Shown: positions 36,587-38,541 of the stretch, one piece after another
How positions within the stretch are numbered: position 1 is the first letter of the stretch
Layout: every line of letters begins with the position of its first letter
Assembly: GCA_026388125.1 (NCBI GenBank)
Contig: JAPLKJ010000190.1
Coordinates: 1-38,879, forward strand
Length of the DNA stretch: 38,879 bases
Reading direction: 5' to 3'
DNA from: Elusimicrobiota bacterium
GTDB lineage: Bacteria > Elusimicrobiota > Elusimicrobia > Elusimicrobiales > UBA9959
The notes under the pieces: generated by a model
What the model was told of the DNA's origin: nothing
Database searches by the model: none
What the model saw: only the letters and a program-made list of their open reading frames with translations
Position numbers and translations under genes: made by a program

Positions 36587-36628
36587 TGCCGATATAATAC
36601 AATAACTTGCCCCGCACTTTGAACTTCT

Positions 36629-36646
36629 CCCTCCCGCCTCCCTCCC
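36629..36646 (-). promoter_or_regulatory. Potential G-quadruplex in 5' leader
   Basis: Minus strand GGG-A-GGG-AGGC-GGG-A-GGG. Confidence 0.55.
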
Positions 36647-36662
36647 GCCGGGGGAAAAGAAA

Positions 36663-36699
36663 GAACCCGCGAAATCCCGTTTATAAGGGCCGCAGGTTC
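36663..36699 (-). promoter_or_regulatory. 5' leader hairpin followed by a pyrimidine/T-rich tract
   Basis: Minus strand GAACCTGCG-GCCC-TTATAAAC-GGG-ATTT-CGCGGGTTC then TTTCTTTT; 9-bp outer stem including one G-U. Confidence 0.55.
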
Positions 36700-36705
36700 A
36701 AAAAT

Positions 36706-36733
36706 ATTCTAGCAGAAATATAACGGTTGTCAA
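36706..36733 (-). promoter_or_regulatory. Strong sigma70-type promoter with extended -10
   Basis: Minus strand TTGACA-16-TAGAAT with TGC before the -10. Confidence 0.7.
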
Positions 36734-36741
36734 GACCCAAT

Positions 36742-38541
36742 TCAGTCCCCGTGCAGCTCCGACCAGCGGAGGAAAAGCGCCTCTACTTTGGCCAGCGCGG
36801 CGTCCAGTTTTTTATGGCGCGCGGCCAGTTCTTCCGAGTTGGTGGCTATGGCGGGGTCCTCCAGGGCCAGGCGTGCCTTGGCGGCCTGGTTCTCGGCGGT
36901 CTGCATTTCGGATTCCAGCTTGCGTATGGCCGCCTTGAACTCCCTGGTCTCTTTGGCCGAAGGCCCCTGCGCGGCGGCCGCCTCAGGGGCTGGCGCACTG
37001 GCGGCCTCGAGCCGCTGCTGCTCCATCCAGTTCTCCCACTGCGAAAGGTCGGCGAAGAACCCGGCGTTGCCCCTGCCGTCCAGCGCCAGCAGCCTGCGGC
37101 TGACGCGCTCCAGCAGGTAGCGGTCGTGAGTGACCAGCACCAGCGCGCCGGGGAACTCGCACATGCTTTCCTCCAGCACCTCCAGCGACTGCAGGTCCAG
37201 GTCGTTGGTGGGCTCGTCCAGCAGCAGCACGTCTGCGGGCTCCAGCATGAAGCCGGCTATCAGCACGCGGGCCTGCTCGCCGCCCGACAGCAGCCGGAGC
37301 GGCATTTCCAGCTGCTCGGCCCGGAAAAGGAAACGGGTGGCCCAGCCTTTGACGTGTATGGCCGCGCCTTTGTAGAACACGTGCTCGCCGTGGCCGCACA
37401 GCGCCTGTTTAAGAGTATGGTCGAGGTTGAGCTTCGCGCGGTGCTGGTCGAACACGGCCACGCGCAGGCCGTCGGCCCGCTTGAGCGTGCCGGTGTCCGG
37501 CGCCAGCTGCCCGGCCAGCATCCTGAGCAGGGTGGTCTTGCCCGAGCCGTTGCCGCCCAGCAGCCCCAGTTTCTCTCCTGGCCCCAGCGTAAGGTCCAGC
37601 GGCCCGAACAGCTTGCGCCCGCCCAGGCTTTTCGAGATGTTCACGGCGTGTATGAGGCGGTTAGCCTGGCGGTCACCGGCGGTGAAATCCAGGCTGGCGG
37701 TGCGGTTCTGGGCGTTGTGATACTCCAGCTCGGAAAGTTCCTTTATCCATTCGCCCGCCCTGTCGATATGGGCTTTCTGCTTGGTGGTGCGGGCCCTGGC
37801 CCCCCTGCGCAGCCAGGCTATTTCAGTGCGCACTATATTGCGCACCGATTCTTCGCGCGAGGCCTGGGCGTCGAAGAAAGATTCCCGGTTCTCCAGGAAC
37901 TTGCTGTAATTGCCCACGCTGTTGAAACAGCCTTCGGGGTAGCGCTTGTTGAGCTCTATCACGCGGTTGGTGACGCGCTCGAGGAAGCGGCGGTCATGCG
38001 TGACCACCAGGAAAGGGAATTTGTAGTCGGCAATGAAATTTTCCAGCCACAGCACGCCTTCGATGTCGAGGTGGTTGGTAGGTTCGTCCAGCAGCAGCAG
38101 GTCGGGCTCGCGCACGGTGGCCGCCAGGATAGCCAGCCGCTTGCGCCAGCCGCCGGACAGCACGTTCACGCCCTGCGCCGGGTCAGCGAAACCCGCGGCG
38201 GCCAGCCCCGCGCTGGCGCGCCGGTCTATCTCGTAATCTTCCAGGCCCAGGCCGTCCAGGGCTTTCACGATCTCTTCGCGCACCGTCCAGCCTTCGGCGG
38301 CGCCGGTAAAACGGTCCTGCTGCGCCAGGTAGCCCAGCCGCAGGCCGCGCCTGGGCGTGACCGCGCCGGAGTCCTGCGTTTCGGCCCCGGCCAGGATCTT
38401 CAGCAGCGTGGATTTGCCGGCCCCGTTGGGGCCGATAAGCCCCGTCCGCTCGCCGTCGGACAGGCCGAACGACAGCCCCTCGAACAAAGGGCGCGAGCCG
38501 AAGCTTTTGGAAAGGTCCTGACAGCTGAGCAGTATGGCCAT
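36742..38541 (-). CDS. ABC-F family ATPase (Uup-like)
   Basis: Two ABC domains: GPNGAGKSTLLKIL / LSGGWRKRLAILAA / LLLDEPTNHLD and GGNGSGKTTLLRML / LSGGEQARVLIAG / LLLDEPTNDLD; C-terminal coiled-coil. Confidence 0.95.
   Translation of the reverse strand: MAILLSCQDLSKSFGSRPLFEGLSFGLSDGERTGLIGPNGAGKSTLLKILAGAETQDSGAVTPRRGLRLGYLAQQDRFTGAAEGWTVREEIVKALDGLGLEDYEIDRRASAGLAAAGFADPAQGVNVLSGGWRKRLAILAATVREPDLLLLDEPTNHLDIEGVLWLENFIADYKFPFLVVTHDRRFLERVTNRVIELNKRYPEGCFNSVGNYSKFLENRESFFDAQASREESVRNIVRTEIAWLRRGARARTTKQKAHIDRAGEWIKELSELEYHNAQNRTASLDFTAGDRQANRLIHAVNISKSLGGRKLFGPLDLTLGPGEKLGLLGGNGSGKTTLLRMLAGQLAPDTGTLKRADGLRVAVFDQHRAKLNLDHTLKQALCGHGEHVFYKGAAIHVKGWATRFLFRAEQLEMPLRLLSGGEQARVLIAGFMLEPADVLLLDEPTNDLDLQSLEVLEESMCEFPGALVLVTHDRYLLERVSRRLLALDGRGNAGFFADLSQWENWMEQQRLEAASAPAPEAAAAQGPSAKETREFKAAIRKLESEMQTAENQAAKARLALEDPAIATNSEELAARHKKLDAALAKVEALFLRWSELHGD

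Follow-up and report, generated by a model that had tools for sequence, protein, structure and literature searches.

A probable family of very small non-coding RNA genes, each a fixed promoter followed by a bulged hairpin, in one family of Elusimicrobiota

The window, the whole 38,879-nt stretch of an Elusimicrobiota genome analyzed here, carries on its minus strand an ABC-F ATPase gene, a compact unit consisting of a promoter, a hairpin and a U-rich tract, and the open reading frame P0001. The features are listed below in the order in which the minus strand is read, and the counts refer to the copies of the unit described in the following paragraphs.

36742..38541, minus strand: ABC-F ATPase gene, conserved upstream neighbor of the window copy
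36728..36733, minus strand: -35 hexamer TTGACA (TTGAC invariant and spacing fixed in 77 distinct copies)
36706..36714, minus strand: extended -10 element TGC TAGAAT, hexamer 36711-36706 (TG-TA-A-TAT nearly invariant in 77 copies)
36699, minus strand: predicted +1, a G at the hairpin foot, placed by comparison (G in 77 of 77 distinct copies)
36655..36699, minus strand: predicted small RNA of ~45 nt (match to covariance model R2, 68.7 bits, E 1.2e-13)
36691..36699, minus strand: 5' strand of the 9-bp outer stem, GAACCUGCG (covariation)
36690, minus strand: conserved G ahead of the inner stem
36687..36689, minus strand: 5' strand of the inner stem, CCC (covaries between copies)
36679..36686, minus strand: apical loop of 8 nt, UUAUAAAC (loop tally; possible cross-loop pairs U-A/C-G)
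36676..36678, minus strand: 3' strand of the inner stem, GGG (covariation)
36672..36675, minus strand: 3'-side bulge AUUU, 3-5 nt in the family (extracted copies)
36663..36671, minus strand: 3' strand of the outer stem, CGCGGGUUC (covariation)
36655..36662, minus strand: U-rich tract UUUCUUUU (TTTCTTTT, 36662-36655), a terminator tail or linker; conservation ends here
36629..36646, minus strand: G-tract GGGAGGGAGGCGGGAGGG, a G-quadruplex motif of chance frequency outside the conserved unit
36594..36623, minus strand: promoter-like TTCAAA-18-TATTAT just 5' of P0001, candidate own promoter of P0001
35558..36586, minus strand: P0001, YkuD-like by motif only, a neighbor outside the unit

The promoter consists of TTGACA and TAGAAT separated by a 16-nt spacer with a TG extension, and matches the consensus at 11 of 12 bases. 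In the 4-kb region, four promoter-like sites were found versus 0.8 in shuffles. A first-pass annotation of this DNA had already described this extended -10 promoter on the minus strand and placed the transcript start at about 36698-36699, where the hairpin begins. Comparison of the copies bears out both readings: the promoter is where it was described and is kept across copies, and the predicted start is supported by the invariant G as well as by the distance from the first base of TTGACA to the hairpin foot, which is 34 nt in all 46 copies measured. G 36699 is the seventh base past the -10 hexamer, which is the canonical +1, so the stem foot occupies the usual start position. Among the extracted copies the layout is invariant, TTGACA-N13-TGCTANANTAT-N4-(36-39 nt hairpin)-UUUCUUUU, and the information content drops to ~0 outside the region from -40 to the U-tract, with random flanks in the 77 distinct copies. 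A promoter of its own at a fixed distance from the RNA is what would be expected of a small RNA gene. The promoter pattern occurs eight times in the window's genome; three of the occurrences precede the hairpin family, and a fourth precedes a diverged hairpin.

The 37-nt hairpin (36699-36663) folds with -19.6 kcal/mol (z = -4.4). Covariation in related genomes, which the first-pass annotation had named as a check on its 5'-terminal hairpin, supports this fold: pairing was retained in 99.1% of cells among 37 distinct sequences, with 41 double changes versus 10.8 in shuffles, and in 98.8% of cells among 82 copies (69 distinct), with 80 double-sided compensatory changes versus 24 in shuffles; none of 500 shuffles reached the observed value in either set. 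In the 82 copies, changes on both sides were found in 9 of the 12 pairs, compared with slid controls that pair in 28-57%. The inner stem covaries between CCC/GGG, CCU/AGG and ACC/GGU. G-U occupies 38 cells and A-C only 3 among the 69 distinct copies; since an A-C cell is a G-U pair of the opposite strand, this bias indicates that the RNA lies on the strand of the promoter. The odd outer pair of the window hairpin, pointed out previously as G-U in minus-strand RNA, was thus read correctly and follows a general rule. Compensatory changes preserve the structure of the transcribed strand, again as in a small RNA gene. The loop changes between copies with the fold maintained (21 copies with UUAUAAAC, 8 with CUCUUAGU, 8 with CUCUCAGU, 6 with CUAUUAGU, plus others), and what stays the same is the upper part of the outer stem, the 3' bulge, and the inner stem with the G that precedes it. 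The loops also suggest a pair across the loop, which is U-A in one type and C-G in the other, with few evolutionary events behind it. The promoter and the hairpin are real and lie far above chance.

When the window's own genome was searched with a 201-bp stretch, a second copy was found on another contig, spanning the promoter, hairpin and U-tract only. (That contig also carries a group II intron match of 41.6 bits, at L050:61-139.) By BLAST, 31 of 61 relatives contain a match, frequently two, and almost all of these genomes belong to the same genus; the matches cover the promoter, hairpin and U-tract and, the nearest relative excepted, extend no farther than the edge of the G-tract. The RNA unit occurs throughout the genus and also in four sister genera from the family to which it belongs: with the covariance model built on the RNA only (R2), strong copies were found in all 32 genus genomes as well as in the genera g14 and g15, and weaker copies in g3 and g16. 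With the combined model that includes the diverged hairpins (R3), four copies were found in the window's genome, and the number per genome ranges from one to ~5. In g3 and g16 an extra segment lies between the promoter and the conserved hairpin, indicating that the hairpin forms a module separate from the promoter. R2 matches in the phylum's other families reached only 25-34 bits; we did not count these as family members, and two that were inspected (L099, L104) have no promoter. A pattern scan of 84,980 GTDB species genomes matched 63 stretches, and the true matches are MAGs named Elusimicrobia, Elusimicrobiales or Elusimicrobiota, or bins corresponding to genus genomes. Four of the 63 (Aminicenantes, 'Bacillota') were rejected as chance matches; they have no hairpin and, by eye, run into tRNA-like genes. 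The scan thus found no TTGACA-hairpin unit outside this Elusimicrobiota family. A viral origin was considered and rejected, as all 15 pattern matches in IMG/VR were one unrelated promoter. No Rfam 15 family matches the RNA unit at the gathering threshold or at E <= 1, and neither Rfam families nor tRNAs were found in the window.

The copies with known context mostly lie within ~150 nt behind a same-strand gene. There are two main sites. First, the ABC-F gene is located upstream of the window-type copy in 15 or 16 genomes. (In L033, G005:C52, only the first 44 ABC-F residues match upstream of the RNA copy, either a truncated remnant or an assembly problem.) In other genomes, no fewer than six unrelated genes stand downstream at the orthologous site; by eye, they encode RNase HI, a CDP-alcohol phosphatidyltransferase, a sigma factor, chromate- and metal-related proteins and an unknown protein. 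Second, copies are located in a metH / S1-domain / WG-repeat / coaD neighborhood (names by eye from translations), where the RNA points toward the 3' end of the WG-repeat gene and sometimes occurs as a pair separated by 120-180 nt. Away from the ABC-F site, copies abut convergent genes. There is no fixed association with one downstream coding gene, a further property of a small RNA gene, and the varied downstream genes at orthologous sites exclude a gene-specific leader.

This bears directly on the first-pass annotation, which had taken the unit for the leader of a YkuD-like gene, P0001. The hairpin does start 113 nt ahead of the P0001 ATG (36586) on the same strand, with no independent terminator between. 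However, P0001 is downstream of an RNA copy in two genomes only, the window's and that of its nearest relative, whereas orthologous copies precede unrelated genes, many copies face convergent genes, and P0001 has the promoter-like site of its own listed above. The name YkuD-like finds no support in Pfam, where P0001 gives no match even at E = 10; only an SGCVKL motif, seen by eye, fits it. (A P0001 homologue is found at the ABC-F site of one other genome only.) As to the proposed G-quadruplex, the motif is present, but nothing supports it as a regulatory element: the window contains seven such motifs versus 5.6 expected from dinucleotide shuffles, and the G-tract follows 2 of 84 copies; in L003, the nearest relative, the motif is no longer intact. 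The C-run beside it, suggested as a competitor for the G-tracts, is not conserved. Conservation in close relatives therefore extends to the hairpin and not to the G-tracts, and among the roles that had been offered (attenuator, thermosensor or small RNA) comparison speaks for the small RNA and gives no support to the other two. We consider it very improbable that the unit is a leader, attenuator or thermosensor of P0001 with a G-quadruplex.

Several dispersed copies per genome could also be expected of a mobile or repeat DNA element, REP- or MITE-like, that happens to carry a promoter. However, the copies number only ~1-5 and occupy orthologous positions across the genus, at the ABC-F and metH/coaD sites, which argues for vertical inheritance rather than mobility. 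Moreover, the unit has no conserved ends past the promoter and RNA, conservation tracks the RNA pairing, and viral contigs contain no true match. We therefore regard a mobile element as hardly credible.

The diverged hairpin behind the fourth promoter in the window's genome, GGAGCGGAACACCUUAUCGACGGUUGCUUUCCGCUCCUUUCUUUU (type C), has both the outer and the inner stem rewritten, with the promoter and the 9-1-3-8-3-4-9 layout unchanged. Type C copies were found in 26 of the 32 genus genomes and in three genomes of g14; when they are aligned with the other copies, 97.9% of cells are paired and the covariation score is 0.58 versus 0.20 in shuffles. In all ten type C copies examined, a conserved GAGGGAGACAG and, beyond it, a canonical terminator come after the hairpin. 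(At L245, G000:C145, minus strand, this GAGGGAGACAG might pair with the CUCC/UUUC stretch ahead of it.) A terminator within 90 nt downstream is also present in 12 of the 66 other non-A copies, compared with none of the 16 type A copies. At the window site, the hairpin with its U-tract is the only terminator-like feature, from which we predict an RNA of ~45 nt; where a separate terminator follows, as at the type C loci and part of the type B loci, the prediction is ~75-95 nt. Since better terminators stand behind type C and the 12 non-A copies, the 3' end may differ between loci. A GC-rich hairpin followed by a U-rich tract is present at the window site, but the hairpin is bulged and the U-tract is interrupted by C; together they resemble only a moderate terminator, and a simple scan allowing no bulge omitted the hairpin.

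These observations raise the question of whether the unit is a specialized intrinsic terminator that serves whichever gene lies upstream (ABC-F, metH or another) and contains a promoter, the short RNA being a by-product. Such a reading would account for the location of most copies within ~150 nt behind a same-strand gene, for the U-rich tract after the hairpin and for the absence of any other terminator within 90 nt downstream at the window site. On the other hand, a terminator could do without a fixed promoter, an invariant +1 or conservation of the inner stem, bulge and loop, and in type C and part of the type B copies the hairpin is accompanied by a separate canonical terminator. Termination as the main function is accordingly unlikely in our judgment, and it is possible that at type A sites the RNA serves as a terminator also for the upstream gene.

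The explanation that we favor, and hold to be probable, is a family of very small non-coding RNA genes, specific to this lineage and acting in trans, most likely by binding a protein. The conserved unit, its promoter geometry, RNA strand, structure and copy number, as well as the absence of any constant gene downstream, are computed from the genomes; from these we infer transcription, the 3' end and the mode of action of the RNA. The strong extended -10 promoter would start transcription at the first base of the 37-nt hairpin. The resulting RNA would consist of a 9-bp outer stem, a 3-5 nt bulge on the 3' side, a 3-bp inner stem and an 8-nt loop, followed by UUUCUUUU, and would act in trans, most likely by binding a protein through the bulged apical stem-loop and less likely by base pairing through the loop. 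With positive controls working, Hfq was detected in none of 41 genomes, ProQ in none of 37 and 6S RNA (RF00013) in none of 41. Since the loop varies while the stems and bulge stay, and neither Hfq nor ProQ was found, we rank binding to a protein above antisense pairing. The latter shares our gene-level reading and differs in the mode of action: the apical loop (UUAUAAAC or CUCUYAGU) would pair with target mRNAs. A small RNA with its own promoter and a U-rich end, whose paralogues within a genome differ in the loop, is reminiscent of multi-copy sRNA families and makes this a possibility to be taken seriously, if the less probable one. Against it, the loop is only 8 nt long and variable between copies, no longer conserved single-stranded seed is present, the cross-loop pairing would occlude the loop, and the two chaperones were not found in the searched genomes. 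It is also conceivable, though rather doubtful, that the ~45-nt hairpin RNA, with its near-consensus promoter and an upstream palindrome that some copies share with c-di-GMP riboswitch promoters, is a global regulator binding a core protein such as RNA polymerase or the ribosome, in genomes where 6S, Hfq and ProQ were not detected. Two further ideas were discarded: a kissing homodimer through the palindrome UUAUAA, as one loop type only is palindromic and CUCUUAGU and CUCUCAGU are not, and a CsrA sponge, as GGA occurs by eye in some copies only.

Among known systems, independent intergenic bacterial sRNAs have their own promoter and a Rho-independent end, with an early expected size of 100-200 nt (PMC9438474). 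The Elusimicrobiota RNA is similar to these in its own promoter, intergenic site, structured RNA with a U-rich end and paralogues, and differs in being much shorter, in that the whole RNA at the window site would be one bulged hairpin from +1, and in that Hfq and ProQ were not detected in the host genomes. Like sRNAs from mRNA 3' ends (PMC9438474), the hairpin RNA lies just behind a same-strand gene and may terminate that gene; in contrast to them, it has a strong dedicated promoter past the stop codon rather than being a processing product, its upstream gene varies by locus, and type C adds a separate terminator. The genus-wide presence would be compatible with a general role like that of 6S RNA, yet the RNA is one hairpin of 37 nt that lacks a large central bubble, and RF00013 has no match in the 41 genomes. 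Termite-flg and Termite-leu are Rfam RNA motifs of Elusimicrobia, from the same phylum; a search of Rfam as a whole matched no family to the hairpin RNA. Finally, the c-di-GMP-I riboswitch (RF01051) occurs in the same genome behind the same promoter type and a similar upstream palindrome, but is unrelated in structure and sequence, and the hairpin RNA has no aptamer match.

In the type C set examined (L240-L249) and in four g14 copies (L085-L088), the palindrome, TTGAC-NN-GTCAA, lies ~52 bp ahead of +1, and in 11 type B copies it overlaps the -35 box; it is a candidate operator of a regulator. Together with the same promoter type, it precedes c-di-GMP-I riboswitches at L191 (G000:C135) and, in relatives, at L051 and L044, hinting that these riboswitches and the small RNA genes may share regulation.

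A full-text search of open papers for small or non-coding RNA in Elusimicrobia or Elusimicrobium found no relevant paper, and Elusimicrobiota are almost unstudied at the RNA level. The hairpin RNA is of an ordinary kind, a small RNA gene, belonging to a new family of unusual size and geometry, and the case shows how an apparent leader may turn out to be a gene in its own right. The covariance models point to ~100 RNA genes that no Rfam family matches. In genomes where Hfq, ProQ and 6S were not detected, the retention of promoter and fold throughout the genus and into sister genera argues that this RNA has a real job.
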